A DNA stretch of 64,000 nt, from assembly GCA_946566685.1 (NCBI GenBank), contig CAMNXA010000001.1:186001-250000 (forward strand), given 5' to 3'. A program made the position numbers and the translations under genes. The notes below the pieces were generated by a model, which worked only from the letters and a program-made list of their open reading frames with translations, made no database searches and was not told the DNA's origin. The first letter of the stretch is position 1. Each line of letters opens with the position of its first letter. Positions 18,523 to 62,017 of the stretch are shown piece by piece. The DNA comes from an uncultured Lachnospiraceae bacterium (lineage in GTDB: Bacteria > Bacillota > Clostridia > Lachnospirales > Lachnospiraceae).

Positions 18523-19701
18523 CTACTTTCTTACTATCAGCCGCAATAACATCGGATCCTCAGTCTCTGTCCTGGAAAACCCGGTTTTCTCTTCGCTTGC
18601 GACAACCGTAAACCCTAATTTCACGACTTTCCGGATCAGTTCTTCCGGATCGATAAACCTTCTATAATGGTCGTTATAGATAAAAGCGTTCTTTTCCACT
18701 GCTTCTCCCAGACCGTATATCTGATCATGAATGGTCCTGGCTTCTATCATGAACAATCCATTTCTCTTTAATGCTTTATACACATTGCCCAGAAGCTGCT
18801 CCTCCTGTTTTTCGGTGATGGCATGCAGGGTAAAACGGCTGTAACAATAATCATATTCTCTTTGAAACAAAACATCCGCTGTCACAAAATCATCACATAT
18901 AAACTCCAGATACTTGTCATCACCGTGTGTCTGTTCCAACATTCCGATTGCAACATCGGAAGCATCGATTCCCACCACATGTATGTTGTGCTTTGCAAAA
19001 AAGATACTGTCTCTTCCATTGCCGCAGCCTAAATCCAATAAATATTTGGTTTCCCCTGCCGCCGTCTGATCACCAATCATATTCTGCATTTCTCTGGCAA
19101 AGGAACTGCAATCATTTAAAATCACCGGCCTTTGCTGATAATACTCATTCCAATAGACCGTATCTTTATTAAATACCTCTTTCTCTTTATAGGTAACATC
19201 CTGTATCTTCTGCACACACTGCCAGACAGGAACAGACCCATCCGTATTCAATATGATATCCGGATTTTTGGGGAATTCCGCCTCATAGTGAATTCCCGGC
19301 AGATCATCCTGTTTGTCAGAACTCAGGTACAGTCCCTTCTTATCCCTCTTTTTCAGCACTTCCATGGGAACATCCAGAAACACTTCTATGTAGTGAGCAA
19401 AGTTTTCCCTGTTCCATGCTCTTATCTCATCAAACATGGCTATTGTGCAGATAATGACGTCTATGCCCTGATCGGAGAGCATCTTGCACATCAAAGAATA
19501 TCTCCTGGCACGGCCAAGCCGCTCCTGCCTTGTGTATCCCGGCGTGTCTCCACCCACTATATTCTTCAAAATATCTCCGTCAAGCAATACCACCGCGGAC
19601 TGCTTTTTCATTTTATAATACAGTGCGTTTCCCACCGTTGTCTTCCCGCTTCCAGCCAAACCTGTTATCCAATATACGATTCCCTTTTTTGTACTGTCCA
19701 T
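18523..19701 (-). CDS. CysC-like nucleotide kinase fused to SAM methyltransferase
   Basis: A 392-aa fusion. Residues 1-170 are of the adenylylsulfate-kinase fold: P-loop GLAGSGKT (14-21), LLDGD and RDKKGLY. The APS-kinase signature FISPYR is replaced by TIAMFDEIRAWNREN, as in the second CysC-like protein at 42329. Residues about 200-392 are a class I methyltransferase (LLDLGCGNGRDS, VGIDAS). The paralogue at 42329 sits in a phosphoramidate-type gene set, so this kinase may phosphorylate a CDP-linked donor rather than APS, with the methyltransferase acting on the same compound. No sulfate-activation genes (cysD/cysN) occur in the window. Domain calls are firm, substrate inferred. Confidence 0.82.
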   Translation of the reverse strand: MDSTKKGIVYWITGLAGSGKTTVGNALYYKMKKQSAVVLLDGDILKNIVGGDTPGYTRQERLGRARRYSLMCKMLSDQGIDVIICTIAMFDEIRAWNRENFAHYIEVFLDVPMEVLKKRDKKGLYLSSDKQDDLPGIHYEAEFPKNPDIILNTDGSVPVWQCVQKIQDVTYKEKEVFNKDTVYWNEYYQQRPVILNDCSSFAREMQNMIGDQTAAGETKYLLDLGCGNGRDSIFFAKHNIHVVGIDASDVAIGMLEQTHGDDKYLEFICDDFVTADVLFQREYDYCYSRFTLHAITEKQEEQLLGNVYKALKRNGLFMIEARTIHDQIYGLGEAVEKNAFIYNDHYRRFIDPEELIRKVVKLGFTVVASEEKTGFSRTETEDPMLLRLIVRK

Positions 19702-39554: not shown

Positions 39555-42332
39555 TCAGTCAGTCTTTGTTACAAACCCATGGGTATTAACCATGATTCTG
39601 CTTTTATCAATTCCTGCCGCCAGAAGCTCCTGTTCTATCTCCCGAAAATAATAGCTCGAAGTTATTAATACCGGATACTCACATGACGCTTCTGCTACTT
39701 CTGTTGTACTCATTACTCTTTTTCCATAAAACGTGAAATTGTCATCCAATGCTTTCTTATCAGCAAAAAGGATTCGATCCCTGTCTGTCTGATCCAATAA
39801 TTGCAATAGTCCTTCTGCGTCCCTTCCCGTACCATAAAAAATGATCCTGTTAGCACGCCGGATATCACATACCATTGATAACATCTCATCAATTTGATGC
39901 TGATAAATATAAATCCACCTGAAAATATTATCTTGTGCATCAATCACATCATCTGAATAGAGGTCTTTCGTAACACAGGCCAACACCTTATCAAATAAAC
40001 GCTTATCAATAGCAATCCATTTATTATACTTTTGAATACACCCCAATAAAGCTGTTTTTCGAATTTTCCAAAGTTGCCCGCGCACTGCTATTTGCAGTTT
40101 CAAAAAATACGCTGCATATGCATCTTTATCCTTAAAATGCATTTTGCTCTGCACACGTAAATGTTTGAGAAATATCTCCTGTAGTTCTCTTCTGGAAAAA
40201 TTCATTATATTAACACTTGGATATCCATACCGCATCTGTATTTCAGCACTTCCCAGCGCTATTTTCATTCTGTCAAATGCGGATAAATAATAATCTCTGA
40301 TGTTATAGACCGGTCCTAAATCAAATCCCGTCACTCCAAAAAGCGAGTCTGTCTTTTCATGATCCGTTGTCTGCAACATCGTCTCACTCCAAGGAATATC
40401 TATTATCCGGCATATCTTTTGCAGCTCACTTCTTGGTTCCAGCTTGATATCCTCAAATCGAACAGCAAATTCTTTCCAGTACTTATAGCATATCCTGCTT
40501 TGTTCCACTTCCGAAAAAACCGCCATCTGATATCTGTTGATGCTTTTTTCGTTTTTCTGAGTGATTCCAAACCTGTCAACATGGGAAGCGCCCCGTATAA
40601 TCGCATTGCGGCACAGGATCATGGTATTGCCCTGAATATCAGTACTCTCCAGCCATTTAGCAAAATAGGATACCACCTCACTGCTCTCCGGAAAAACCTG
40701 CCCAATATGCGGCTCCCAATATATAACCATTCCGGATATATCCGCTTCCCTTTTTTCATCCCACATCGCCGCATGCGCCATGTGCAACAGCACAAATATC
40801 TCCTGTGCTGTATAAGAGGTTCCCTTTTCTGTCAATTCTTCTATTTTTGCCGTAAATTTATCTCTCTGCGGGAAGTCCTCCTTTATCACCTCTTTATCAT
40901 TTTCTTCCTCATACATCTTCCAAAATTCACTTACAATATTTTCTGCCTTTACGTTTGCCAAACGGATACAATACCAAAACAGATTAAAACAGAAATCTCT
41001 TTTTATTAACAAAATATTAGGATGTCCATCCACAACGCCTCTGAAAAACACATTCCCGCTCAATCCTTTGCTTTTTCCCAAAAGGATTCCCTTGGGTCTC
41101 AAATGGGCGTGTGGATATTTATCCTGTGCGGTATTTATAACACTAAACGCCTCATGTCTTGAAAAATAAGCTGTATAATCTTTATACTTTTTATGCCGAT
41201 TTATCAGTTCCAGATTCTTCTCATAAACATGCGGTATTACATTATAAGACATCTCTGGCCAAACCAATAAAACAATTTCATCTGCATCTGCTTCAATATC
41301 CTCTGTTATCTTCTGAAATCTGGCTTCTATGTTGATCCTCTCCGCCAGATATGTATCCAAGGTCTCGCATAACCTGTAATCGCCCAACAAGACAACTCTT
41401 TTATTGTCAAGAACATTCAGAAGGCTGCTGTCAGGTATTTCCATGTAATCTCTTATTGTGTAAAAATTCTGGTTCCGTCTGTATCCGTAATAATCATACT
41501 GATCCGTTTCTCTGCTTCCCAGAGCGCTGTTTTTATCGGTGCACTGAATGAATACCGGATTCTCAATCTTTTCCAATGCTTCATCAAACTGTATGACCGG
41601 CTTTCCCAACAGCCTTTTGCGCGTCTCCCCCTTTTGCGCAAGAAAACCATATATGTCTATTCCCTTACCTGACAAAAAGTCATAGGTATCCTGTGAAGGC
41701 ACTTCGTCTCCAATAATGATGATATTTTTCTCCTCATGTAATGTCTCGATTAATTCTTGAGAAGATTTATCAGTATCTGTAATTCTGGAGTATAGTAAAT
41801 TTTCTTCATATATCCTGTCTATACATTCAAATTCTACAGAAACGCTTGTCAAAAAGTTATGATACCATTCTCTTTTTGGTCTGATGCCTTCCGCATAAAT
41901 CGTAAACGGGTTCTTTCCGGACTCTCCACAACTGGCATGCCAGTCTAAATCTTCCCAATAGTCCCCGGATACTCTTACCTCTACTCCCTGCTCTTTTAAA
42001 TATTCAGCACATGCAAATGCCAGCTCATTAAAGCCCTGTATCGTGACACATCCATAATCCGGAAAAACTTCCGAAAACTTCAGGCTCTCAGGCTTTTCCC
42101 GCAATTCCCTTATCATTCTAAGTTCACGGTCCGCCTCCTGATCCTGGTAGGCATAGCAGATAATTTCACCCGACTGATTTATTACCGGCAGGACCGCATA
42201 TTCTTCCCTGTTATATTTGAAAAAAGTTCTTCCGTTTTTCCAAATATCTCTGTCTAACATGATAGGAGATATCTCGTATGCACTTTGTAACTGTCTGTTG
42301 TTTAACAATGTTCTCCCACAAAATCTGATCAT
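39555..42332 (-). CDS. giant sulfotransferase-fold protein with several Rossmann-like modules; candidate phosphoramidyl transferase
   Basis: A 925-aa protein. Residues about 95-380 contain three weak Rossmann-like units (CVTIQGFNELAF, IIIIGDEV, RVVLLGDYRL). Residues about 415-700 resemble a divergent PAPS-type sulfotransferase: GKSKGLSGNVFFRG and VVDGHPNI (419-440) align with the 5'-phosphosulfate loop, LCRNAIIRGASH (573-584) with the 3'-phosphate motif R575/S583, and SELQKICRIIDIPW with the usual C-terminal helix. A last module near 825-920 has RIIFYGTGRDAEG. The gene overlaps the CysC-like kinase gene by 4 nt. In the Campylobacter pathway that kinase makes a 3'-phospho-CDP-amidate, structurally analogous to PAPS, so this fold is a logical transferase for it. 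That role is inference. Confidence 0.7.
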   Translation of the reverse strand: MIRFCGRTLLNNRQLQSAYEISPIMLDRDIWKNGRTFFKYNREEYAVLPVINQSGEIICYAYQDQEADRELRMIRELREKPESLKFSEVFPDYGCVTIQGFNELAFACAEYLKEQGVEVRVSGDYWEDLDWHASCGESGKNPFTIYAEGIRPKREWYHNFLTSVSVEFECIDRIYEENLLYSRITDTDKSSQELIETLHEEKNIIIIGDEVPSQDTYDFLSGKGIDIYGFLAQKGETRKRLLGKPVIQFDEALEKIENPVFIQCTDKNSALGSRETDQYDYYGYRRNQNFYTIRDYMEIPDSSLLNVLDNKRVVLLGDYRLCETLDTYLAERINIEARFQKITEDIEADADEIVLLVWPEMSYNVIPHVYEKNLELINRHKKYKDYTAYFSRHEAFSVINTAQDKYPHAHLRPKGILLGKSKGLSGNVFFRGVVDGHPNILLIKRDFCFNLFWYCIRLANVKAENIVSEFWKMYEEENDKEVIKEDFPQRDKFTAKIEELTEKGTSYTAQEIFVLLHMAHAAMWDEKREADISGMVIYWEPHIGQVFPESSEVVSYFAKWLESTDIQGNTMILCRNAIIRGASHVDRFGITQKNEKSINRYQMAVFSEVEQSRICYKYWKEFAVRFEDIKLEPRSELQKICRIIDIPWSETMLQTTDHEKTDSLFGVTGFDLGPVYNIRDYYLSAFDRMKIALGSAEIQMRYGYPSVNIMNFSRRELQEIFLKHLRVQSKMHFKDKDAYAAYFLKLQIAVRGQLWKIRKTALLGCIQKYNKWIAIDKRLFDKVLACVTKDLYSDDVIDAQDNIFRWIYIYQHQIDEMLSMVCDIRRANRIIFYGTGRDAEGLLQLLDQTDRDRILFADKKALDDNFTFYGKRVMSTTEVAEASCEYPVLITSSYYFREIEQELLAAGIDKSRIMVNTHGFVTKTD

Positions 42333-42859
42333 ACTGTCTCCTGCTTCCCTGCCCCCCGCAGCCAGCTCATCATAATCTCCACTTGCTCTTCCGGTTTTTT
42401 TGCTCCATCATTTATGAGAACCAGATCCGGAGACTTCGGTTCTTCATATGCGATATGAATTCCTGTAACACGGCCATCCTTTTCTGCCGTATTGCCACTA
42501 TACAGACCTTTTTGGTCTCTCATGGCCAATACTTCCATACCAACCTTTAAGTATATCTCCGCATAACCGACTATATTTTCTCTGTTCCACTCTCTTATTT
42601 CATCAAACATGGAAATCGTACAGCACACTACATTGATTCCCTGCTGTTGTAACATTCTGCACAGTCTGGAATATCTCATCGCACATTTTCGCCTGTCGCT
42701 TTCTGAATACCCCAGATCATCACCGAATACCTGTCTTAACAGGTCTCCGTCAAGAAAAACCGTATTGGGACAGCTCTCCTTCAATCTCTCATAGAACAAT
42801 TTCCCTATTGTTGTTTTGCCTGCTCCTGCAAGACCTGTTATCCAATATACAGCACTCAT
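42329..42859 (-). CDS. CysC-like kinase, predicted cytidine-diphosphoramidate kinase
   Basis: A 176-aa P-loop kinase of the adenylylsulfate-kinase fold: GLAGAGKT (9-16), FLDGD, LGYSESDR and RDQKGLY. The APS-kinase FISPYR element is replaced by TISMFDEIREWNREN. In C. jejuni the homologous gene type Cj1415, also annotated cysC, phosphorylates the 3'-OH of cytidine diphosphoramidate. Here it follows a nucleotidyltransferase by 5 nt, and the amidotransferase, methyltransferase and glutamine-kinase genes lie just upstream, the same gene set as in Campylobacter. No ATP sulfurylase is present. Fold certain; substrate inferred from context. Confidence 0.85.
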   Translation of the reverse strand: MSAVYWITGLAGAGKTTIGKLFYERLKESCPNTVFLDGDLLRQVFGDDLGYSESDRRKCAMRYSRLCRMLQQQGINVVCCTISMFDEIREWNRENIVGYAEIYLKVGMEVLAMRDQKGLYSGNTAEKDGRVTGIHIAYEEPKSPDLVLINDGAKKPEEQVEIMMSWLRGAGKQETV

Positions 42860-42864
42860 TCATC

Positions 42865-43647
42865 TCACCTTTTCAATTCCGACTCCACTATCTTCAGATC
42901 ATCACAATCATCAATCTCAAACCAGCCCCGTTCGATATGTAGCGCTTTAAGCTTATTCCCTGTGTCAATCAACCCTTGCAGCAGATCCGTCATGTACATT
43001 TTCTGATAGGTACGTTCCGTTCTCCAAAGGGCCATTCCTTTCTGCGTTCTTTCCTCTGCCTCTTTTGCAAGAACAAGCATTGCAGTAAGCCCTGCACCCC
43101 TGAATCGCATCAACCCGATATACTGCGACTGCACCCTGGATAATTCCGTTGTCTTTTGTCCAATCTCAATCAGATAATCATCCTTATCAAACATTAATGT
43201 TTCCGCATCATCCAACGGATTCTCACATCGTTTTGACCAATAGGAATACCAGCCATCGTCCACGATAACCGCAGAATCTTCCTCTGCATCCAGAATCTTC
43301 TGAAGAACAGTCTCGTTGTAGATAATATCTCCATAGGAAATTAAGATATCTTCCTGGCTTTCCATCACCTGCCGCGCACACATAAGAGAACAGACCATAT
43401 TGGTAGTTTCATACTCTTTATTGATGATAATACTGACCTCTGTATCCGCAAATTTCTTCTGCAACACATCACCACGATATCCGGCAACGATTGTGATATC
43501 CGCATCGTTTATTCCACATGCATGCATTGTATCTAACTGCCTGTCAAGTATACTTTTGCCATTCACGTCCACCATACACTTTGGCCTGTCGTCCGTCATT
43601 GGTCTTAATCTTGTTCCCTGTCCTGCTGCCAAAATAATTACTTTCAT
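42865..43647 (-). CDS. nucleotidyltransferase, predicted phosphoglutamine cytidylyltransferase
   Basis: A 260-aa sugar-nucleotidyltransferase-fold protein: LAAGQGTRLRPMT (7-19), catalytic RPKCMV with K23, GD at 106-107 as a metal ligand, and a terminal EIDDCDDL for the second metal site. The family includes phosphocholine cytidylyltransferases and Cj1416, which joins L-glutamine phosphate to CTP to give CDP-L-glutamine. It overlaps the amidotransferase gene by 4 nt. On sequence alone it could be another sugar- or choline-phosphate cytidylyltransferase; the neighbours favour the phosphoglutamine reaction. Confidence 0.85.
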   Translation of the reverse strand: MKVIILAAGQGTRLRPMTDDRPKCMVDVNGKSILDRQLDTMHACGINDADITIVAGYRGDVLQKKFADTEVSIIINKEYETTNMVCSLMCARQVMESQEDILISYGDIIYNETVLQKILDAEEDSAVIVDDGWYSYWSKRCENPLDDAETLMFDKDDYLIEIGQKTTELSRVQSQYIGLMRFRGAGLTAMLVLAKEAEERTQKGMALWRTERTYQKMYMTDLLQGLIDTGNKLKALHIERGWFEIDDCDDLKIVESELKR

Positions 43648-44264
43648 ACGCTCTCCGTCTCCGCTCCCTCAAACAATTTTCTTATCCTTACAATATCTGT
43701 ATCTTGAAATGGAACTTCTCTTTCCGGATGCCACATCGTAACGATTATGTTTTTCTCCGGATATTCCGCCGCCTCAATCACGCCGTCCTCTGTTTTCATC
43801 ACTGCCTGCAATGGGGCTCTTATTGCCCTGCATGCCTGATTATGGTAACTGTTTACCTCCATACTTCCCCATTTACCTGATGCCTGATGCCTGACAGCCA
43901 CATGGCCTTGTACATTCTCCAATGGACAGCCAAAATAATCCAGGATCACCTGCATTCCTCTGCAAAATCCGTAAATCGGAATTCCCTTTTCCATGGCTGT
44001 CTTAACAAGCTGTTGTTCCATTTCATCCCGTTCCGGCGCATTACCGCCATATTTTACAAGACTGTTGCCACCTGTCAGCAACACGCCTGCCGGATCAACT
44101 GCTTCCACAAATGTACTCAGATCTGCTATTGCATTTGGTATGGGAACCGGAATATAACCGCAGGTCTCCAGAAATAACGGTATATTTTGATCTGCACAAT
44201 CCCGTCTCTCGTGGTAACTCTCCACAATCTCTACTCTCTGCGTGTAGATAACTGTCCTTTTCAT
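43644..44264 (-). CDS. class I glutamine-amidotransferase-like hydrolase, predicted gamma-glutamyl-CDP-amidate hydrolase
   Basis: A 206-aa peptidase C26-type protein. The nucleophile elbow GFCRGMQ gives C101, and the His/Glu pair comes from MWHPERE (H179, E181). LTGGNSL shapes the oxyanion site, and VNSYHNQ matches gamma-glutamyl hydrolases. In Campylobacter, Cj1417 hydrolyses CDP-glutamine to glutamate and cytidine diphosphoramidate. The order here (kinase, methyltransferase, hydrolase, cytidylyltransferase, CysC) puts it in the same functional slot. Catalytic triad clear; the exact substrate is inferred from context. Confidence 0.85.
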   Translation of the reverse strand: MKRTVIYTQRVEIVESYHERRDCADQNIPLFLETCGYIPVPIPNAIADLSTFVEAVDPAGVLLTGGNSLVKYGGNAPERDEMEQQLVKTAMEKGIPIYGFCRGMQVILDYFGCPLENVQGHVAVRHQASGKWGSMEVNSYHNQACRAIRAPLQAVMKTEDGVIEAAEYPEKNIIVTMWHPEREVPFQDTDIVRIRKLFEGAETESV

Positions 44265-44302
44265 ATCCGCTTCCTCTTCTCCCTGCCATAGTATTACAAA
44301 TA

Positions 44303-45070
44303 TTACTTACATACTTGTGCTGTCCACGCCCTCGACTTATAAGGAACTGAAATCTCACTGTAATCTGCCAATAAAGAATCTATATTATCCAATATCTTTT
44401 GAAACCGTTCTTCACCTGCCTGAACACGGATGTCATTCACAGAACGCCAGATATTGATATAACGCTCCTTTGACATCAGCTCGTCATGATCGCTCTCCAT
44501 AAAAATCAAATCCTTATATCCACTGCCCAGTAACTTTTCTGCCATCTGTTCTGTGGACACCGTACCTCCCGAAGAGACTCTTTTCATATTGGGCACTTCT
44601 TTATAAATCATATTTTCAATTTCTGTGTGAAGTTCGCTTCTCTTAATATCACGTGGATTCCAGATTGCAGTAAAATATCCGCCCGGTCTTAAGATACGAT
44701 GAAATTCCGCAACCGCTCTCGGCGCATCCGTCCAATGGAACGAAGATCCCATCAATACCCAGTCCACACAGTTATCCGGTAAATTTGTCTCTTCTGCAAA
44801 TCCGGCTTTCCACTCAAATGTATTTCTATCCGCAAACAAACGTATCCCTTCCTGACGCATTGCATCATTGGGCTCTACTGCATAACCTGTCAGCCCAATC
44901 TGTTCCAGATTTTCCGTCAGCTTTCCTGTGCCTGCACCCACATCTGCAACTGTAAGAGCCCTTCCCAGGCTTTTCTCAACATGATCCTTGATATACTCCA
45001 AAAGCGTCAGTGAATATCCGGGCCTGTCAATATAAAATTTTGCTAATTCTGTAAAATCTCCATGTTTCAT
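44303..45070 (-). CDS. class I SAM-dependent methyltransferase of the phosphoramidate block
   Basis: A 255-aa Methyltransf_11-type enzyme: VADVGAGTGKLTENL (SAM site, near 41-55), VEPNDAM, DWVLMGSSFHW and LRPGGYFTAIWNP. It resembles the UbiE/TAM group. Sitting between the glutamine kinase and the amidotransferase, it fits the position of Cj1419/Cj1420, the methyltransferases that provide the O-methyl group of methyl phosphoramidate in C. jejuni. Small-molecule or sugar methylation is equally possible from sequence alone. Confidence 0.85.
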   Translation of the reverse strand: MKHGDFTELAKFYIDRPGYSLTLLEYIKDHVEKSLGRALTVADVGAGTGKLTENLEQIGLTGYAVEPNDAMRQEGIRLFADRNTFEWKAGFAEETNLPDNCVDWVLMGSSFHWTDAPRAVAEFHRILRPGGYFTAIWNPRDIKRSELHTEIENMIYKEVPNMKRVSSGGTVSTEQMAEKLLGSGYKDLIFMESDHDELMSKERYINIWRSVNDIRVQAGEERFQKILDNIDSLLADYSEISVPYKSRAWTAQVCK

Positions 45071-45082
45071 GTCCTTTTCCTC

Positions 45083-47404
45083 CTAACATATCACTCTGAC
45101 CGTCTTTGCCAGACTGTCAATTTCCAAAATATCTGCCTTTTTGTACAACTCAAATTTTTCCGTACCTACACCGATTACTGCCGGAATTCCCAGTTCGCCT
45201 GCCCGAATGGCCATATGCGAATTGGCACCTCCATATTTCGTGATAAAGCCCCGGATATTATGTGAAAACATCCAGTCATATCCCGGATCCGCGCTGGTGA
45301 TGAGAACTATCTTGTCATCAATTTCAACATTGGAAACGTCATTCTGCAAAACCTCAACCTTCCCGCTTGTAGACTGTAATGTAATAAAATTGGGCACTGT
45401 TTCCGGATATTGAAAACTCCATACACTTCCCACATCCATGATAACCGGCGGCAGCGTTATGGACTTGGTCAGCACATAATCCTTTTTCCCACGTTCTATT
45501 GATTGTTTCAGAACCGTGCCTAAATCCCTGGTTGTGGAATAGAGATTCATGATGGACCTGATATCTAAAAATGAACAGTCGTCCTTGTCAAATCCATACT
45601 CCTTACCAATCTCTCCAATTAGCTGAATCACTTTGCTGATATTTTTGGTAAAGACAAATTTCCCGTACTCTCTTCCCTCTATGGACTTTCTTATAAAATC
45701 CATCAATCCTAAAATGTCATTGTTAAGACCTTTTTCCTTTAACTCTTCCGTAAGTCTATGCAGTTGCTCCAAAGACAGCCTAAACAGTTTGTTGTCTGCT
45801 GACACATCTTTTCCTTTTCGTTTCTGATCCCAGTTAAAATATAAATCAGGGGCTTCATCATAACGTTTGGAAGTGATATTATATGTTCCCGGACGTAAAT
45901 GTCCGTATTTATCCAGGAAATTAACCCTTGTCATCTCAAAAAAGTCTCTGCCCATATCCGAACTGACTGTACTCAGATCGTTCATGAACTGTTGATAATC
46001 TTCACTGGATATAATCTCCTTGGTAACCATCGATTGCAGCATTTGAACCGCTATGAAGGCTGCTCTTGCCAGACCTGCAAATGGCAATGTCCCGTATCGT
46101 TTGCAATCTTCTATCAGCCAGTATATCTTTTCAATATTGCTTAGTTCGCTGTTTACAATTTCCTGATACCGTCTCTCAAGAATATTTAATTTCTTGTAAT
46201 CACTTCTCCACAACCCCGTTTCATGATTGATAATGGTATTGGTCATATCTCGCAGAGCCAAAATAATCTCTTCTATCTCTGTATCCGAAAACCCATACTC
46301 CTTTAATATCTGAATACGCTCCGGTAAATCCAGCGTATAGCAGGAAAAGACAATCTGAAATTCTACCTTATCATGCTTTGTCGGATCTTCCTCCAGCCTT
46401 TCTATGTAGTAATCTACCAGCTTTTCACTGATATTCTCATCCAGTGAGGCGGGAATAAAGGAGTTAAAGCTTACCCTGATATCAATATAGGGAAGTCCGC
46501 AGAAATCAACCATTAACGGAAAACTGCGCAGATTTCTGTATCCATAATTATCCCTCTGGTACGCCCATATATTATCCGTTATGACCTCTTTATATAATGA
46601 GAGCGCCAATGGTTCCGGGCGTATTCCTATCATCTCAGCCGGATTCCAGTCCGACATCACCCCATAGATTGCTTTTTTGCCACATACAAAAGGTTTTCGC
46701 ATGGCTTCTGAATGAATCTTGTCTGCAATCCTCTGCAATTCCCGCCTTTGACTTTCCATATCAACTTCATGGCCGGATACACATAATGGACGAACCTGTA
46801 AAATATATAACTCATCCCCTGCTGTCATGGCGAACTCTACATCCAGCTTCTTCGTCCCGGTGATTTCTTCCAGTTCTTCCAGGGCTTTACAAATCCTCTG
46901 CATTTCCGGTTCTGCTTCGTCCGTTTTTCCTTTGAATATATACACCAACTTATCATTTTGACCAGTTCCTGAGGTAATCGCATCCGTAGAACCACTGGCA
47001 TCATAATTGATCACATAGTAATTTCCCATGGTATTAGGATCCAGTGTAAACGCAACACCTCCCATTTTTACATTTTCCAGCATTGGCTGAACCAAAATCT
47101 GATTGTCGGGGTTATTATCATCATAGGAGGAGATTACATTTGTAACTGCTTCCGCAAACTCCTCTTCTCCTCTGACATGAAGAACCGAACAAAACTCCCC
47201 GGCACGCGAACAGTTCTCTGTATCCTCATTGACCGCACTGCTTCTTACAATGACATTTTTATTCCACTCTAGACTTCTATACGTGGAAATAATCTGAAGC
47301 TTATCTTCTATCCAGTCGCTTACACTAAAATAATAAATTGGCAATATCCGGGCATTATGAAGTTTTTTGGTCAAGCTACTTAATGTCTCTGCTTTCGTTC
47401 CCAT
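45083..47404 (-). CDS. PEP-synthase-like protein, predicted L-glutamine kinase
   Basis: A 773-aa protein with an N-terminal ATP-grasp domain (VRSSAVNEDTENCSRAGEF, then MGGVAFTLDPN and VRPLCVSG) and a C-terminal swivelling phosphohistidine domain (YGGANSHMAIRAGELGIP, H730). The PEP/pyruvate-binding TIM barrel of true PEP synthase and pyruvate phosphate dikinase is missing. This is the architecture of Cj1418 (about 770 aa), the enzyme that phosphorylates the amide nitrogen of L-glutamine to start phosphoramidate synthesis. Size, catalytic His position and neighbours all agree. Rifampicin phosphotransferase-like enzymes share the fold, but the context argues against that role. Confidence 0.87.
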   Translation of the reverse strand: MGTKAETLSSLTKKLHNARILPIYYFSVSDWIEDKLQIISTYRSLEWNKNVIVRSSAVNEDTENCSRAGEFCSVLHVRGEEEFAEAVTNVISSYDDNNPDNQILVQPMLENVKMGGVAFTLDPNTMGNYYVINYDASGSTDAITSGTGQNDKLVYIFKGKTDEAEPEMQRICKALEELEEITGTKKLDVEFAMTAGDELYILQVRPLCVSGHEVDMESQRRELQRIADKIHSEAMRKPFVCGKKAIYGVMSDWNPAEMIGIRPEPLALSLYKEVITDNIWAYQRDNYGYRNLRSFPLMVDFCGLPYIDIRVSFNSFIPASLDENISEKLVDYYIERLEEDPTKHDKVEFQIVFSCYTLDLPERIQILKEYGFSDTEIEEIILALRDMTNTIINHETGLWRSDYKKLNILERRYQEIVNSELSNIEKIYWLIEDCKRYGTLPFAGLARAAFIAVQMLQSMVTKEIISSEDYQQFMNDLSTVSSDMGRDFFEMTRVNFLDKYGHLRPGTYNITSKRYDEAPDLYFNWDQKRKGKDVSADNKLFRLSLEQLHRLTEELKEKGLNNDILGLMDFIRKSIEGREYGKFVFTKNISKVIQLIGEIGKEYGFDKDDCSFLDIRSIMNLYSTTRDLGTVLKQSIERGKKDYVLTKSITLPPVIMDVGSVWSFQYPETVPNFITLQSTSGKVEVLQNDVSNVEIDDKIVLITSADPGYDWMFSHNIRGFITKYGGANSHMAIRAGELGIPAVIGVGTEKFELYKKADILEIDSLAKTVRVIC

Positions 47405-55816: not shown

Positions 55817-56530
55817 TTATTTCATCCATGCACTCTTCTGCATTGATAACAATGCCTTAAATATTGTGATATCATCAGTTGTAGTTATTTTAATGTTTAA
55901 CTCTGATCCCTTTGCAAAATATACCTTTTTCCCTAATTCAAGCAAAAGTGTGCACGTTGCCACAGAATTTGTAATGCCTTTCTCCAAAGCTTCTTTATGT
56001 AACGCAACTGCATCCTTTACACTGATCGTTTGCGGCGTCTGTGCTCTAAAGAGAGAGTTCCTAAGGATACTCTCCTCTGACTGACATTCATCCTCTGACT
56101 TGAGCATTGCTTCCATACATGGTATGACTGTAATTGCATTTCCATATTTTCTGCATTTGACAATATTGTCTGATATGATATCTACCGATACCATCGGACG
56201 GATTGCATCATGCACCAGAATCAGATCCTCTTCCTCAAAATCATTCGCAATGGCATTTACGCCATTCCGGATTGAATCCTGTCCATTCTTGCCGCCTTTG
56301 ACAATTTTCTTAACCTTAGTGGCATTAAATTGTTTTACATATGCCTGTAAGATTTCCTGCCAGCCATTGAGACAGGCTACATAAATCGCATCTATCTCCG
56401 GATGCTTTTGAAACGCTTCTATTGTATATATAATTACTGGTTTGTCGTTTACGCTTAAAAACTGCTTTGGAATATCCTGATGCATCCTCGCACCGGTACC
56501 ACCCGCAATCAGCAATGCTATATTCGCCAT
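55817..56530 (-). CDS. IspD/TarI-family cytidylyltransferase
   Basis: About 237 aa from the ATG at 56530, or slightly longer from a GTG at 56542, where AAAGGA sits only 1 nt away. It carries LLIAGGTGARM, IPKQFL and DAIRPMVS, the core of the IspD/TarI fold. Family members activate methylerythritol phosphate or ribitol phosphate with CTP. The neighbours (LicD, glycerophosphodiesterase, a TagD-type fusion) fit a CDP-polyol rather than isoprenoid synthesis. No TarJ-type ribitol dehydrogenase is next to it, so the polyol is unknown. Family secure. Confidence 0.88.
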   Translation of the reverse strand: MANIALLIAGGTGARMHQDIPKQFLSVNDKPVIIYTIEAFQKHPEIDAIYVACLNGWQEILQAYVKQFNATKVKKIVKGGKNGQDSIRNGVNAIANDFEEEDLILVHDAIRPMVSVDIISDNIVKCRKYGNAITVIPCMEAMLKSEDECQSEESILRNSLFRAQTPQTISVKDAVALHKEALEKGITNSVATCTLLLELGKKVYFAKGSELNIKITTTDDITIFKALLSMQKSAWMK

Positions 56531-56586
56531 ATTAGCAACCACATCCTTTTCCCGATTTCCAAATCTTCATTCCATACTGTTCTATA

Positions 56587-57402
56587 TCAGACAAACTTAA
56601 TACTCGTCACAGGATGTGTTTTTCTTTTATCTTCCGGTGGTAATTTCATATAGTCTCCAAATTCAAAGCCAAGCCACCCCTGATAATCTTTCACACCTTC
56701 AAATTCATAACCTTCAAACAAAATTGGCGCAGTTTCCGCAAACCATTTTCTGTAATATCCATCCAACTTTTTAGGAGCGGGATAGGTAAGCGTTCTTACT
56801 ACTTTGCTGGTGTCCGAATGAACTTTCAGAATTAATCCCCTATACATCCTTTTAATGCTTCTGTCAGGTATCATGGATAATATGCTATAAACAATTCGAT
56901 GTACCCTGCTCTGGCTTTCCCGTTTTCCTACCTTTGACCATAAAATTTTCCTGACACAAAAACATCGAAACTTATGTATTTTACGGAGTACTCTATTATC
57001 AGGTGTTCCATCTATCGGAAAAATATCAAGAAACATTCCCTGTTCATACTCCATATGATCCTGATTTTCTCTTACAAACAAAGTACCCTTTCTCCGTAGT
57101 TTTGCATAACCCCATCTATATCCTTCTGTTCTCTCCATATTCTGAAAATAAAATCTGGAATGATCCAATTTTTCATCAATAATAGAACAAAATTTTTCAT
57201 ATTCCGGACGGAGCATTGCAACATCCGCATCATCATCCCATGGAATAAATCCACCATGTCTGACCGCCCCCAAAAGAGTGCCGCCTATTATGGTATATTT
57301 GATATTATTTTCTTTACAGATTCTATCTACCTCAATAAGCATCTCGAGTTCTATCTTATGCAGCCGTTCCAACATTTCCCCCGTCAATTCCATACCTATC
57401 AT
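56587..57402 (-). CDS. LicD-family phosphotransferase
   Basis: A 271-aa protein with the LicD nucleotidyltransferase-fold core IIGGTLLGAVRHGGF (39-52) and the metal-binding WDDDAD (55-60). LicD proteins transfer phosphocholine or related phospho-alcohols from CDP donors to sugars, the same superfamily as fukutin-related ribitol-phosphate transferases. It is sandwiched by an ATGA overlap with a glycerophosphodiesterase upstream and followed by a cytidylyltransferase, so it probably transfers a CDP-linked alcohol phosphate to the glycan. The choline kinase and transporter genes of a lic system are absent. Confidence 0.9.
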   Translation of the reverse strand: MIGMELTGEMLERLHKIELEMLIEVDRICKENNIKYTIIGGTLLGAVRHGGFIPWDDDADVAMLRPEYEKFCSIIDEKLDHSRFYFQNMERTEGYRWGYAKLRRKGTLFVRENQDHMEYEQGMFLDIFPIDGTPDNRVLRKIHKFRCFCVRKILWSKVGKRESQSRVHRIVYSILSMIPDRSIKRMYRGLILKVHSDTSKVVRTLTYPAPKKLDGYYRKWFAETAPILFEGYEFEGVKDYQGWLGFEFGDYMKLPPEDKRKTHPVTSIKFV

Positions 57403-58133
57403 CCTTCATTCAAATAAACTTCCGGCTCATTTAAAAACACATCCGTAATGCCCTTCTTTTCCAATAATGCCAAATCTAATTTGCTTCCTGTTGGCCTCTC
57501 CGGATACAAATGTCCGGTAAACCACGCTCTCACACTATACTCCTGTATTTTTTCAGCCGGCAGATCCATTCCCCGCCAGTAAGGATGAAGTGCCACTGCG
57601 CCACATCCGCCCTTTAATTTATACAGGCAATCGGAAACCCTGGTATCTAAAATTCCAATCTCCGCCTGCGAATCTATATTTTTGATTTTCTCCAAAGACA
57701 GGGCACTGAAAGAAGAGTAGACGATATTCTCCTGCAACCCATATCGCTCAATCAACTCCACAATTTTTTCTTCCATTCCTGCATAAGGATAAATACTGTT
57801 CTTCAACTCTATATTGAGTTTTAATCCGCTCCGGATCCTGTCTTTCAAAAGATCAAGGACTTCTCCGATTGTCGGGATCGACTGACTGGGATTGCTGTCG
57901 GCATAGATATGCAGCCTCTTTATCTCAGAAAGCGTATAGTCCCTCACGTACCCGATGCTTTCCGTGGTTCTGTCCACTCTCTCATCGTGGATCACTACGA
58001 TTTCCCCATCTTTTGTCAGTTGGATATCCAGTTCGATTCCTGTCAGTCCATCCAGGCCTGCCGCCTTTTCAAAAGCAAGCAGCGTATTTTCCGGATATAT
58101 CTGACTGCATCCTCTGTGCGCCCATATTTTCAT
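57399..58133 (-). CDS. glycerophosphodiester phosphodiesterase
   Basis: A 244-aa GDPD-type TIM barrel. Seen: WAHRGCSQIYPENT (H6, R7), IELDIQLTKDGE with E35 and D37, and the second His in VIHDERVDRT (H49). It hydrolyses glycerophosphodiesters to glycerol-3-phosphate and an alcohol. No signal peptide is present, so it is cytoplasmic. It overlaps both neighbours by 4 nt and could supply glycerol-3-phosphate to the adjacent TagD-like enzyme or edit a phosphodiester intermediate. A role in general lipid turnover is less likely here. Confidence 0.93.
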   Translation of the reverse strand: MKIWAHRGCSQIYPENTLLAFEKAAGLDGLTGIELDIQLTKDGEIVVIHDERVDRTTESIGYVRDYTLSEIKRLHIYADSNPSQSIPTIGEVLDLLKDRIRSGLKLNIELKNSIYPYAGMEEKIVELIERYGLQENIVYSSFSALSLEKIKNIDSQAEIGILDTRVSDCLYKLKGGCGAVALHPYWRGMDLPAEKIQEYSVRAWFTGHLYPERPTGSKLDLALLEKKGITDVFLNEPEVYLNEG

Positions 58134-59476
58134 ATCTGTTTTTGCGCCTTTCTCAGTGCCAAAAACTTTTCCATAATCTCAGCCATTGTCTCCGAATCCC
58201 CTCTGGTCAGTTTAAAATCTTTCCTCGTATCACCGTTTATCATCGAAAGCATGTCACAGATTTCATACCGCAGACCATCGCCAAGAAATCTTTCAGAAAA
58301 ACGCTCCACATCGCCCGGATTCTCGTGATGCACCTCAAAATAACTTGTTTTCCACCACGGCGCTTCCACCACAATATATCCGGTCGTCCCGGATATCAAA
58401 AGTTTCCCCTCCGATTTCACTCCCAGCCCACATGTGGCTGTAGCCAGCCCGTTAGGATAACGCATATGTACCCTGGTGTATAAATCGATTCCGTTTTTAT
58501 CTTCTATTGTCTCAAATCGCAAATCCTCGTAATCCTGTCCAAATAGTTTCAGGATGGGAAGCAGACAATAACTTCCAAGTTCAATAAAACTGCCGCCATA
58601 TTCTTTGTCTGTCAGTTCTCTCTTATTGCCATCCTCCAGTTTCGTAAAACATGCTTCTACGGCTCTGATATTTCCTATTATTCCACTACAGGCAATTCCC
58701 AGAAGTTTGGCAAATCCCGGACAATATGCTGTTTTAATCCCTTCAAAAAGAACCAGATTCCTTTTTTTTGCATATGCAAACAATTCTGTCGCCTGCGCTT
58801 TGTCGAGGCATAAGGGCTTTTCGCACAATACATGTTTCCCATGCTCCAATGCCTGCTTAATGTAGCCATAATGCGTCTCATGCGGTGATGCTATATATAC
58901 GATATCTGAATTACGATAGAACTCTTCTATATCTTCATAAGCATCGATTTTCCACTTGTCGGCAAAAGCTTTAGCACTTTGAAAGTGAGGATTATACACA
59001 CATCTGGTATTGACGCCGCTGACAAGTGTTGCCTCCGGAATAAACCTGTTGGCAATCCGTCCCGTGCCAATAATCCCAATTCCCTGGATCTGTGTTTCCT
59101 GCACCCTCAGCATGGTACTGGATATATTTTTCGTTCTATCCAGATACACCACCTTGCAATAGTCATTTAAATAATCAAAAGTCCCCACCCAGTCAGATCC
59201 AACCGTAAAAATATCGATATTATATTTTTTGATATCCCGAAACTTCTGCCCCTGTGATTCCTCCACAATGATCTCATCCGCAAACCCTGTCTTTTTGACA
59301 TTCTCTATCCGGGTAATCAGGGAATCCACCACATTCAGCTTCCCCCTCGCCTGATCATATTCTTCTGTTGTAACCCCCACGATAAGATAATCCCCAAGCT
59401 GTTTCGCCCGCTGCAATAACTTGTAATGTCCCTCATGAAATAAATCGAAGGTTCCATAAGTAATTACTCTAACCAT
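58130..59476 (-). CDS. TagD-like cytidylyltransferase fused to Gfo/Idh/MocA oxidoreductase
   Basis: A 448-aa bifunctional protein. Residues 1-130 are a glycerol-3-phosphate-cytidylyltransferase-like domain: YGTFDLFHEGH with H14/H17 and RTKNISST near 118-125. Residues about 135-448 form an NAD(P)-dependent Gfo/Idh/MocA dehydrogenase: GIIGTGRIANRF, then the signature CEKPLCLDK. The fusion suggests coupled redox and CTP activation, for example reduction of a keto-polyol phosphate followed by CDP transfer. It begins 18 nt after the 840-aa gene and overlaps the glycerophosphodiesterase gene by 4 nt. Both domain calls are firm; pathway inferred. Confidence 0.9.
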   Translation of the reverse strand: MVRVITYGTFDLFHEGHYKLLQRAKQLGDYLIVGVTTEEYDQARGKLNVVDSLITRIENVKKTGFADEIIVEESQGQKFRDIKKYNIDIFTVGSDWVGTFDYLNDYCKVVYLDRTKNISSTMLRVQETQIQGIGIIGTGRIANRFIPEATLVSGVNTRCVYNPHFQSAKAFADKWKIDAYEDIEEFYRNSDIVYIASPHETHYGYIKQALEHGKHVLCEKPLCLDKAQATELFAYAKKRNLVLFEGIKTAYCPGFAKLLGIACSGIIGNIRAVEACFTKLEDGNKRELTDKEYGGSFIELGSYCLLPILKLFGQDYEDLRFETIEDKNGIDLYTRVHMRYPNGLATATCGLGVKSEGKLLISGTTGYIVVEAPWWKTSYFEVHHENPGDVERFSERFLGDGLRYEICDMLSMINGDTRKDFKLTRGDSETMAEIMEKFLALRKAQKQI

Positions 59477-59494
59477 ATCTTCTCCATATCTTCT

Positions 59495-62017
59495 CTAAGT
59501 TAGTCCGTTTATGTATTCATGTACCTTTCTGCCGCAACTCCCGTCATAATTAGCCGCTATCTCGCTATATGCTGCCAATTGTTTTTCTCTGTCAAACTGT
59601 CCGCCTGCTATCTCTCCGTCAAGGAATCTGCCCAAAGAGTTAAAACTATTCTCTATACAGGCATGTTGTAATGTCGCCGAACACTTGCAAAAACCTGGTT
59701 CATGGCTTTTCAACTCTTCCCTGTCAAATTGAATCTCCTTTTCTTCCCATTCTTCTGTTTTCATATTTTTGATACTGAATATTTTTTGCCTTTTATTCGA
59801 ATATAATTTAAAGTCTTTTCTTATCACGTCCGACTGTTTAGGCATAAATGTATAACTTTCCTCTATAAAACCTGTTTTTTCTGTCTGATCCTTTTGGAAC
59901 GAAGGCTGCCATCTGATAAACTGCCCCGTGTTTATATTTAACTTTAAATGCATATTGGCCCATCCTGGAGCAAGATACATATACTCCCCATAAAATGCGG
60001 GGAAATTAAATGCTGGTCCTTCGTCTCCCGTTAAAGAATTCACACAGGAAAATCCCTCTGGATAATCAGAATATTCTCTCACCTCACCTGTCAGAAGATT
60101 CCATCGTACAATCACTTTCCCTTCGTAAGGCATAATCCATAGTTCATCTCTGTACTCTGACAGCACAAATCCTCCACACCTGCTCTCAATCGGCAGTTCG
60201 ATAATTTGTATGTCCCCGCTTTCAATATGCAGCTTGTATATCAGATTATCTGCCGGTGACACTATATATAATTCCCCCTGGTGGATTATTGCATTGCCTG
60301 CTATGTTTTTACCATTTACATTTCTGATAAATACATCTACATGATCCTCTAAATAACAAATTTGCCCTGTTTCCGTATCAAAACGAACCACAGCAGGATA
60401 ATACAAGGGTATCAGAAGCAAATATTTATCATACTTCAATGCTAAACTAAATAATTTCTTATCTTTTATTCTTTCTTCTAACTTTATTGCCTTTTCAACA
60501 CCGTCTTTTCCAATCACAAGGATATCCTGTGCATAGTCAGGACAGGCATACAGTTTCCCATTAATTTCATACACTATGGAGTATTGTGTGTTCTTACCAT
60601 ACTCAGCCAAATCACAGAAATATTGATATCTGTATTCTTCCGGCTCGGACACATATAATTTATTACCCTGTGTTATGACAAATCTTCCATGCTCATAAAA
60701 GCTATAGTTGATAATTATCTCCTCTCTCCAACTATCCTCCCCCGGCTCCTCATGAATCCTGTCATTCAAAATAAATAACGGCTTCCCGGCCAGTCCAAAC
60801 AATGATGTCACGCTTGTCTTGTCGTCTCCTATGTATGCATCACATAAGGCAATCGTATCCGTAATATCAGGCGTTGTATCATAAATTCCCTGATCCTGTT
60901 CTATAAACAGTCTTTTCAGCGCATCATACACCGGGCGGTACTGCGGGCGCATGGAATCAAATGTTGCCTCCAACAGTGGATGTGGACGCCACAACAGACA
61001 GGCATCTTCCCGCCCCTCAAAGCATTGGAACACATAATGCATTTTCTTCAGAAAATTCTCCGTATCCGCTAACATTCCTGAAATGCTCGTATTATAGAAA
61101 TACACTTTCTTACCCGACATTTTCTTCTGCCACTCCTCAGGCCGCGGCGGTGGATTCTGGCATTTCCTGATCACTCTGTCAAATTTCGGTGAACCAAAGG
61201 GCAGAAACTTTCGATCCGGCAATTCTTTGTCAAAATATTCTCTGTACTTTGGCGACTGAATCACAATATAATCTGCATAAAGATAGGCAGAGCACAAGCT
61301 CTGCGCCTCGTTCATTCCTCCTAAAGTACTGTAATATGGAATATAAACCAATGTGTCCGTATACTTTTTCAGATTAGATGAATAATATCTTGGATGTACG
61401 CTGGTAACATGGTTCCAGTCATCGTAGGGATTATGGATATAGATAACATCCGGCTTCCTCTCTTCCAGATTGTAAGCCGTCCAGCCAACCACTTCTATGT
61501 CCTTCGGATAGTCCCCTCCCTCATAATGCATCTTACCCAGACTATGGTCGGGATTTAAATCATAATAAGGAATTGGCACACAGTATGCATCACAGTCCGG
61601 ATCTTCTTTAGCCGCAAAATACACGCTTTCCAGGCTGTCCCACATAGACGCCTTATACGGGAAAAAAACAATTTCTTTCCGTATCCGAATATCATTTTTA
61701 ACACTGTTTTCTATCTTGAGCAGCTGCTTTCGCAAGATTTTATACTCTTTATTTTCATTTACCGGCTGATCCTGCAATGCTTCAAAAACATGAAACAGTG
61801 TTTCACAGTACTCCTCCACATAGGATACTGTGACATGCCCTTCGCCTTCCGACTGCTCAATGTTTTCACCGAGCGTTACCGCGAACTCCTGACACTCACT
61901 GAGCATATTCTGTGCCTGGGCATAATTTTTCTCCTTCAATGCTTCTTTGATCTCGCCGTGCGCCTGATGCAAGCTGTCTATGAAATTGAGTATTTCCTGT
62001 CTCTGCGCTTTTCTCAT
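59495..62017 (-). CDS. glycerophosphotransferase-like protein with C-terminal repeat (propeller-like) domain
   Basis: An 840-aa protein and the first gene of the long operon. The N-terminal region (1-100) is helical. Residues about 125-430 resemble CDP-glycerol glycerophosphotransferases: VYIPYYSTLGGMN, ADYIVIQSPKYREYF, LPFGSPKFDR, LWRPHPLL, and DAYIGDDKTSVTSLFGLAGKP. Residues about 470-760 repeat beta-rich units with aromatic and Gly turns (ETGQICYL, LTGEVREY, NTGQFIRW) and look like a beta-propeller that may grip the glycan. GAGCGG-type ribosome binding sequence precedes the ATG. It probably adds a polyol-phosphate to the glycan; transferase family moderately sure, propeller by eye. Confidence 0.75.
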   Translation of the reverse strand: MRKAQRQEILNFIDSLHQAHGEIKEALKEKNYAQAQNMLSECQEFAVTLGENIEQSEGEGHVTVSYVEEYCETLFHVFEALQDQPVNENKEYKILRKQLLKIENSVKNDIRIRKEIVFFPYKASMWDSLESVYFAAKEDPDCDAYCVPIPYYDLNPDHSLGKMHYEGGDYPKDIEVVGWTAYNLEERKPDVIYIHNPYDDWNHVTSVHPRYYSSNLKKYTDTLVYIPYYSTLGGMNEAQSLCSAYLYADYIVIQSPKYREYFDKELPDRKFLPFGSPKFDRVIRKCQNPPPRPEEWQKKMSGKKVYFYNTSISGMLADTENFLKKMHYVFQCFEGREDACLLWRPHPLLEATFDSMRPQYRPVYDALKRLFIEQDQGIYDTTPDITDTIALCDAYIGDDKTSVTSLFGLAGKPLFILNDRIHEEPGEDSWREEIIINYSFYEHGRFVITQGNKLYVSEPEEYRYQYFCDLAEYGKNTQYSIVYEINGKLYACPDYAQDILVIGKDGVEKAIKLEERIKDKKLFSLALKYDKYLLLIPLYYPAVVRFDTETGQICYLEDHVDVFIRNVNGKNIAGNAIIHQGELYIVSPADNLIYKLHIESGDIQIIELPIESRCGGFVLSEYRDELWIMPYEGKVIVRWNLLTGEVREYSDYPEGFSCVNSLTGDEGPAFNFPAFYGEYMYLAPGWANMHLKLNINTGQFIRWQPSFQKDQTEKTGFIEESYTFMPKQSDVIRKDFKLYSNKRQKIFSIKNMKTEEWEEKEIQFDREELKSHEPGFCKCSATLQHACIENSFNSLGRFLDGEIAGGQFDREKQLAAYSEIAANYDGSCGRKVHEYINGLT

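Follow-up and report, generated by a model that had tools for sequence, protein, structure and literature searches.

Can a bacterium of the family Lachnospiraceae make and transfer the phosphoramidate group known from Campylobacter? The question is raised by six genes at positions 39555-47404 of a DNA stretch of 64,000 nucleotides (the window: positions 186,001 to 250,000 of contig CAMNXA010000001.1, assembly GCA_946566685.1) from an uncultured Lachnospiraceae bacterium. According to PMC11800397, the Campylobacter proteins Cj1415-Cj1418 turn glutamine, ATP and CTP into the 3'-phosphate of cytidine diphosphate (CDP)-phosphoramidate. Judged from their sequences, the six window genes probably form a donor-and-transfer module that decorates the surface glycan of the locus with phosphoramidate (P-N). 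The genes are as follows.

45083..47404, minus strand: KIN, glutamine-kinase-type protein of 773 aa, with an ATP-grasp domain, a middle region and a swivelling His domain with His730, and no phosphoenolpyruvate (PEP) barrel
44303..45070, minus strand: MT, S-adenosylmethionine methyltransferase of 255 aa, Methyltransf_11 type (PF08241, 61 bits)
43644..44264, minus strand: GAT, amidotransferase-fold hydrolase of 206 aa, gamma-glutamyl-CDP-amidate hydrolase type, with C101/H179/E181
42865..43647, minus strand: NTP, predicted phosphoglutamine cytidylyltransferase of 260 aa (PF12804/PF00483), with K23 and D107
42329..42859, minus strand: APSK, paralogue of adenosine 5'-phosphosulfate (APS) kinase and predicted CDP-amidate 3'-kinase of 176 aa (PF01583, 109 bits)
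39555..42332, minus strand: P925, predicted phosphoramidate transferase of 925 aa, with a sulfotransferase-like domain at about residues 378-764

An initial annotation of the window had described five consecutive genes at 42329..47404 as a complete donor set. All five open reading frames (ORFs) are found there, on the minus strand and tightly packed, with intergenic distances of 12 bases between KIN and MT, 38 between MT and GAT, -4 (an overlap) between GAT and NTP, and 5 between NTP and APSK. The description as complete, however, overlooked a sixth gene, P925, which belongs to the same run and shares a 4-base overlap with APSK, and a fusion of APSK with a methyltransferase elsewhere in the window. 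A scan for promoter- and terminator-like sites across the block returned as many as expected by chance. The same genes are co-located in many other genomes, and their grouping therefore exceeds chance.

The extent of this co-location was assessed around relatives of the kinase. A genome scan with four kinases returned 316 relatives, and the loci analysed are the best 80 of these, many of them in metagenome assemblies; 51 of the 80 have 6 kb or more of sequence flanking the kinase on each side and were searched with six-frame profiles. Within 6 kb of the kinase on either strand, GAT is present in 49 of the 51 loci, NTP in 48, APSK and MT in 45 each, and all four in 42; the numbers for the same strand only are 49, 48, 43 and 44, and 41 for the full set. 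At this distance, the profiles found no GAT in L075 and L099 and no NTP in L065, L075 and L096.

KIN combines the PPDK_N (PF01326) and PEP-utilizers mobile (PF00391) domains, and a Pfam scan found no PEP-barrel family in it at E<=0.001. An ATP-grasp and a swivelling His domain without the barrel are what is expected of a C. jejuni-type donor kinase, and the earlier description of KIN as a PEP-synthase-like protein with a swivelling His730 is borne out. Of 95 aligned kinases, drawn from the 80 named loci, the window and 14 others, 92 have His730, and the three exceptions are alignment gaps: two kinases are cut by contig ends (L076, L087) and one is split over two ORFs (L092). Residues R54, E190, R205, H344, D345, R504 and E579 are invariant in all 95, and K346 is found in 94. 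KIN shares its ATP-grasp and swivelling His domains with PEP synthase and rifamycin phosphotransferase but differs from both in lacking the barrel and in matching the model NF004508, far over its cut-off and over nearly the full length (975 bits against 501); it scores far below the cut-offs of the other 21 NCBIfam models listed for it, the PEP-synthase and rifamycin models included.

For GAT and NTP, homologues were collected with profiles built from the window proteins and run on translated ORFs of the retrieved loci. The best NCBIfam model for GAT is NF045546, gamma-glutamyl-CDP-amidate hydrolase (113 bits, E 1.5e-32), 69 bits ahead of the next, and four stand-alone GAT homologues from relatives receive similar scores of 100-127 bits. 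The amidotransferase triad C101/H179/E181 is kept in 65/65 homologues scoring at least 180 bits with the custom profile. The closest solved relative of NTP is the CTP:phosphocholine cytidylyltransferase LicC (1jyk). Its K23 and D107 are kept in 71/71 homologues scoring at least 200 bits, which fits a cytidylyltransferase with phosphoglutamine as the predicted substrate; no pathway-specific NCBIfam model appears among the best 25 for NTP. The catalytic residues initially proposed for the two enzymes are thus conserved throughout these homologues.

By its sequence, the block APSK is a CysC-like kinase distinct from true APS kinase (CysC). It exceeds the cut-off of the NF004041 subfamily (181.8 bits against 127) and falls below that of the apsK equivalog TIGR00455 (119.8 against 138.7). 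Most block APSKs carry an altered signature, S-M-F and N-R, the canonical one being S-P-Y with a different pattern; M84 is present in 44 and N92 in 47 of 54 aligned APSKs, three canonical proteins among them. The canonical controls are a CysN-CysC protein (L078 3123-4973; NF004035, 841 bits), a sulfurylase-APS kinase (L115 3407-5128; NF004040, 813 bits) and a protein compared by motifs only, which are the same as in the other two (L097 2811-4637). The L078 and L115 controls score above the apsK cut-off and below that of NF004041, L078 narrowly so (122.2 against 127). Both APSKs of the window and the block APSK of L078 show the reverse, exceeding the NF004041 cut-off and falling below the apsK one, and the L078 locus carries a CysN-CysC protein and an NF004041-type APSK together. 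The altered signature noted at the start sets the block enzyme apart from all three controls. The second APSK of the window is encoded 23 kb from the block.

18523..19701, minus strand: second APS-kinase paralogue (PF01583, residues 6-151) fused to a methyltransferase domain (about residues 220-320)

Its kinase part shares 52% of 151 aligned columns with the block APSK and exceeds the NF004041 cut-off with 154 bits, and its methyltransferase domain has no detectable likeness to the block MT. The fusion adjoins a sulfatase-family protein (19734-21956) and a CDP-glycerol glycerophosphotransferase (21943-23496).

The fusion also ties an APSK physically to a methyltransferase within the window, and the block genes for the two activities tend to occur together: both MT and APSK are present in 44 of the 51 loci, neither in 5, and each without the other in 1 locus (Fisher 1.5e-5, uncorrected for kinship). 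MT is a candidate for O-methylation of the phosphoramidate. Two loci depart from this arrangement, having a formyltransferase (PF00551) and a protein of 185-205 aa without assigned role in the place of MT (L047:7399-8660, L048:10398-11703). The APSK of L048 scores above the apsK cut-off and below that of NF004041; with an APSK of apsK type and MT replaced, the product of these two loci may differ.

The predicted transferase is assigned by its family. The whole P925 protein matches no Pfam family at E<=0.001. Among ten proteins scanned, five short relatives of P925 exceed the curated cut-off of Sulfotransfer_3 (L103, L099, L104, L121, L132), as do the proteins of L128 and L088, though these are weakly linked to the P925 family; two others fall below it (L115 with 26.2 against 27 bits, L112 with 21.4). 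An alignment of the P925 domain holds 38 of 47 domain copies, and 25 of its 38 rows match Sulfotransfer_3 at E<=0.01. A profile of the family run against the PDB finds OLS, CurM and tyrosylprotein sulfotransferases, and both of the alignments shown cover the N-terminal S-G loop and the later R..S region. All 38 domains keep alignment positions G49 and R198 (residues 426 and 575 of the window protein), and 32 of the 38 keep S206 (residue 583); we take the G49 loop, R198 and S206 to be the sulfotransferase 5' loop and the Arg and Ser that bind the 3'-phosphate. With the profile match and the motifs for the 5' and 3' phosphates, the P925 family as a whole fits the sulfotransferase superfamily, the window row being below the Pfam cut-off. 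The domain is accordingly expected to be sulfotransferase-like and is a predicted transferase for 3'-phospho-CDP-amidate; a motif that keeps the 3'-phosphate site fits a donor with a 3'-phosphate, such as APSK would make. An Azospirillum sulfotransferase used as phmmer query matched nothing at E<=0.001 among the loci.

Taken together, these assignments suggest the following pathway. KIN would pass a phosphate from ATP via His730 to the amide nitrogen of glutamine, and NTP would join the product to CMP from CTP, yielding CDP-glutamine. GAT would hydrolyse glutamate off CDP-glutamine to leave CDP-amidate, whose 3'-OH would be phosphorylated by APSK. The sulfotransferase-fold domain of P925 would then bind the 3'-phosphate and hand the phosphoramidate to a sugar hydroxyl, and MT would probably methylate the donor or the product. 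Family membership and neighbourhood make it probable that the steps to CDP-amidate occur here. The 3'-phosphorylation and transfer by P925 are likely, and for O-methylation by MT we regard the case as evenly balanced; transfer and methylation are deduced from fold family, motif, gene overlap and co-occurrence.

This pathway largely parallels that of O-methyl phosphoramidate (MeOPN) in C. jejuni, where a surface-glycan locus likewise holds a glutamine kinase, a cytidylyltransferase, a gamma-glutamyl-CDP-amidate hydrolase and a CysC-like 3'-kinase, along with a methyltransferase (PMC11800397, PMC10919079). The window differs in its teichoic-type genes, its Lachnospiraceae host, the lower GAT score and the additional APSK-methyltransferase fusion. 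Its transferase is a sulfotransferase-fold protein of 925 aa, set beside Cj1421 and Cj1422 by description only; deletion of either of these is reported to remove the tag from one sugar each (PMC11800397). The initial proposal of a pathway of the Cj1415-Cj1418 type is partly supported, by family matches and catalytic residues; the GAT score falls short of it, and with Cj1419 and Cj1420 having no assigned function the methyl step is unproven.

A number of observations weigh against the phosphoramidate pathway proposed here. NF004508 bears only the name 'hypothetical protein', and the likeness to Cj1415-Cj1418 holds by gene type and family profile. GAT lies below the equivalog cut-off of NF045546 (113 against 250 bits). 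P925 of the window lies below the curated cut-off of Sulfotransfer_3 (E 0.018 for the whole protein, 0.0066 for the domain), and P925-type genes show no significant association with APSK in the 51 loci (24/21/2/4, Fisher p 0.42). According to PMC11800397, neither Cj1419 nor Cj1420 has an assigned function, and their knock-outs show no apparent change. The 80 loci are those nearest to the window KIN, which biases the counts toward window-like blocks. In the 79% complete genome G547, the kinase (64% identical) is truncated by a contig end, and no GAT, NTP or APSK passed the cut-offs used in the rest of the genome. Around the kinase of a Cupriavidus plasmid, the annotation shows no block partner for 9 kb.

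Part of this evidence would suit a different but related donor, made by a kinase acting on another amide or amine, or a product that is unmethylated or otherwise modified, with MT acting on a sugar. The low GAT score leaves room for it, as do L047 and L048 with their formyltransferase, their protein without assigned role and, in L048, the apsK-type APSK; an unmethylated phosphoramidate is cited for the lipopolysaccharides of Xanthomonas and Shewanella (PMC3907429). We nevertheless consider it unlikely, as four gene types match Cj1418 to Cj1415, the GAT triad suits a glutamine-derived gamma-glutamyl substrate, and H344, D345 and R504 (95/95) and K346 (94/95) are maintained across the kinases.

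Ordinary sulfation would have APSK make 3'-phosphoadenosine 5'-phosphosulfate (PAPS) and P925 sulfate the glycan, with KIN, NTP and GAT serving some other purpose. APS_kinase and Sulfotransfer_3 are indeed sulfation families, and the window shares with PAPS synthesis and the sulfotransferases (CysC, tyrosylprotein sulfotransferase, CurM, OLS) both the APSK family and the transferase motifs for a 3'-phosphorylated nucleotide. It differs in the subfamily and changed signature of its APSK and in the sulfate activation genes, none of which were found in the genome. Besides the two APSKs of the window, the genome has a single further APS_kinase match, marginal at 20.4 bits, in a 474-aa frame on contig 33. 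Searches of the 94.8% complete assembly detected neither ATP sulfurylase nor CysD, and the sole match to the PAPS-reductase family, an ORF of 450 aa, is unmatched by the CysD model. This argues against sulfation strongly, if not finally given the completeness of the assembly, a reservation that joins the points raised above; we regard sulfation as very improbable. Still less probable is a decoration of the phosphocholine or glycerol-phosphate type, with a LicC-like cytidylyltransferase and KIN as a choline or sugar kinase. LicC is the closest solved relative of NTP, and the locus holds a LicD gene, but such a decoration has no place for GAT or APSK, both of which stay with KIN and NTP.

The phosphoramidate module lies within a larger glycan locus, the flank of which contains the following genes.

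55817..62017, minus strand: teichoic-type glycan genes, namely IspD-like cytidylyltransferase, LicD, GDPD and CTP_transf_like/oxidoreductase (by Pfam) and a TagF-like protein of 840 aa

The 840-aa protein is TagF-like by an iterated custom profile only (158.7 bits) and has no Pfam match at E<=0.001. A carbamoyltransferase gene inside the glycan locus (33280-35118) points to another decoration, and a TnpB-like protein with a Cas12f1-like TNB domain is encoded at the edge of the locus (62377-63744).

Several loci retain KIN, GAT and NTP in other company. These three occur without APSK and MT beside a TagF-like gene in L089, L101, L113 and a Vibrio alfacsensis plasmid; the TagF-like scores are low in L101 (60 bits), L113 (48 bits) and Vibrio, and L089, L101 and L113 belong to one clade and are not independent. 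A division of loci into those with APSK and a sulfotransferase-like transferase and those without APSK and with a TagF-like one was considered and failed: TagF-like genes are found within 6 kb in 14/45 APSK loci and 4/6 others (p 0.17), and the division is undercut as well by the lack of a tie between P925 and APSK. Fourteen plasmid records cover at least 80% of the kinase, and eight were examined. GAT- and NTP-like genes, recognized by annotation or position, are near the kinase in plasmids of Azospirillum (two), Vibrio, Roseovarius, Agrobacterium and Smac51, and the stretch around the kinase of a Microvirga plasmid is unannotated. In the Agrobacterium vitis plasmid pRvVAT039a (L156, 6908-11997), KIN-GAT-NTP precedes genes for a LysE-family exporter and a CDP-alcohol phosphatidyltransferase, with no APSK or MT annotated; its product is perhaps a small-molecule or lipid phosphoramidate. 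The Azospirillum lipoferum 4B plasmid AZO_p6 encodes, beside MT-KIN-GAT-NTP, a protein of 846 aa with a terminal APS-kinase domain (L136:5632-8172), the first 650 residues of which gave no match to Pfam at E<=0.01 or to any of six custom profiles.

KIN and GAT are fused in three genomes of the window's family (G392, G315 and G577), in proteins of 1011-1024 aa that keep the Cys, His and Glu of the triad (L049:3198-6233, L050:8788-11835, L051:8313-11387). No block MT, NTP or APSK was matched in the 16-19.5 kb around these fusions, and their genomes contain no APSK at E<=1e-5 and no strong NTP (at most 61 bits). The fusions could produce free phosphoramidate from glutamine and ATP. We tentatively suggest, leaning slightly against rather than for, that KIN-GAT-NTP is a general CDP-amidate platform found across some ten bacterial phyla and joined to no fewer than three delivery routes: APSK, MT and a sulfotransferase-fold protein; a TagF-like protein in the absence of APSK and MT; and a CDP-alcohol phosphotransferase.

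Within the window's own family the locus is sparse. With 298 genera sampled, kinase matches at E<=1e-30 occur in 10/299 genomes, four of them strong (43-100% identity), and a strong GAT (E<1e-50) occurs in 3/299, all within those four; the fourth is G547. At these cut-offs both kinase and GAT are absent from the congener G358, which marks the locus as accessory. A kinase tree built by a quick method places the window in a set of 31 rows, mostly Lachnospiraceae, with a support of 99; the rows of the tree are labelled Bacillota, Spirochaetota, Pseudomonadota, Acidobacteriota, Verrucomicrobiota, Planctomycetota, Nitrospinota, Bdellovibrionota, Elusimicrobiota, Thermodesulfobacteriota and Candidatus Melainabacteria. 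The full block in a Lachnospiraceae glycan locus agrees with the expectation that the chemistry would extend to a new group, but the block is spread over many phyla and not local to that group. No Campylobacter is present among the best 80 of the 316 kinase loci, so that Cj1418 may sit among the other 236, and none is present among the kinase matches listed in plasmid, phage and one viral scan (for one of them, the best 30 of 74 records). Four kinase relatives stand alone (L052:9001-11331, L053:9250-11619, L054:8941-11364 and L055:8510-10084, the last short at 524 aa and divergent), and their neighbours are, by sequence appearance, presumably the housekeeping genes pyrH, uppS, rseP and ispG. 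Two kinase relatives carry viral labels, one at 676-2985 of MT837632.1 (Bacteriophage sp., human faeces, 9540 bases) and one in L144, an IMG/VR contig, with 34% and 33% identity; these contigs may be mislabelled bacterial DNA.

The published record describes a narrower distribution. A 2019 review states that Campylobacter was until then the only source in which the O-methyl phosphoramidate modification had been identified (PMC6429109), and one of 2022 calls the glutamine kinase C. jejuni-specific (PMC9561416). An O-methyl phosphoramidate cluster was inferred from structural analysis in Borgs in 2025 (PMC12660748); it resembles the present case as a phosphoramidate cluster inferred outside Campylobacter, a likeness by description only, and differs in belonging to archaeal extrachromosomal elements. 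Among the literature matches listed, from a search outside which most subscription papers fall, none describes these genes as a set in Gram-positive bacteria: a Clostridium botulinum paper merely cites the Campylobacter work, a Legionella paper compares staining, and a C. difficile glycan paper cites the cytidylyltransferase. The donor logic is thus known from Campylobacter, the host and the spread are new, and the kind of transferase is not tied to the pathway in the literature found.

The donor chemistry is likely to operate in the window, and its wide distribution is the main news. If the assignments are correct, biological P-N chemistry would be common rather than exotic, occurring in gut Firmicutes and many other phyla. 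Under the more tentative reading of a general platform, phosphoramidate decoration would be a common surface chemistry, gut Lachnospiraceae included, with the KIN-GAT fusions releasing free phosphoramidate. An unrecognized transferase family would be named for the P-N tag, and cultured strains that carry all five genes, such as Chitinibacter tainanensis DSM 15459 (L108) and Clostridium homopropionicum DSM 5847 (L088), both of environmental species, would be open to nuclear magnetic resonance. In Campylobacter the tag is recognized by many phages (PMC9561416), and by extension it may affect the phage sensitivity of gut commensals.

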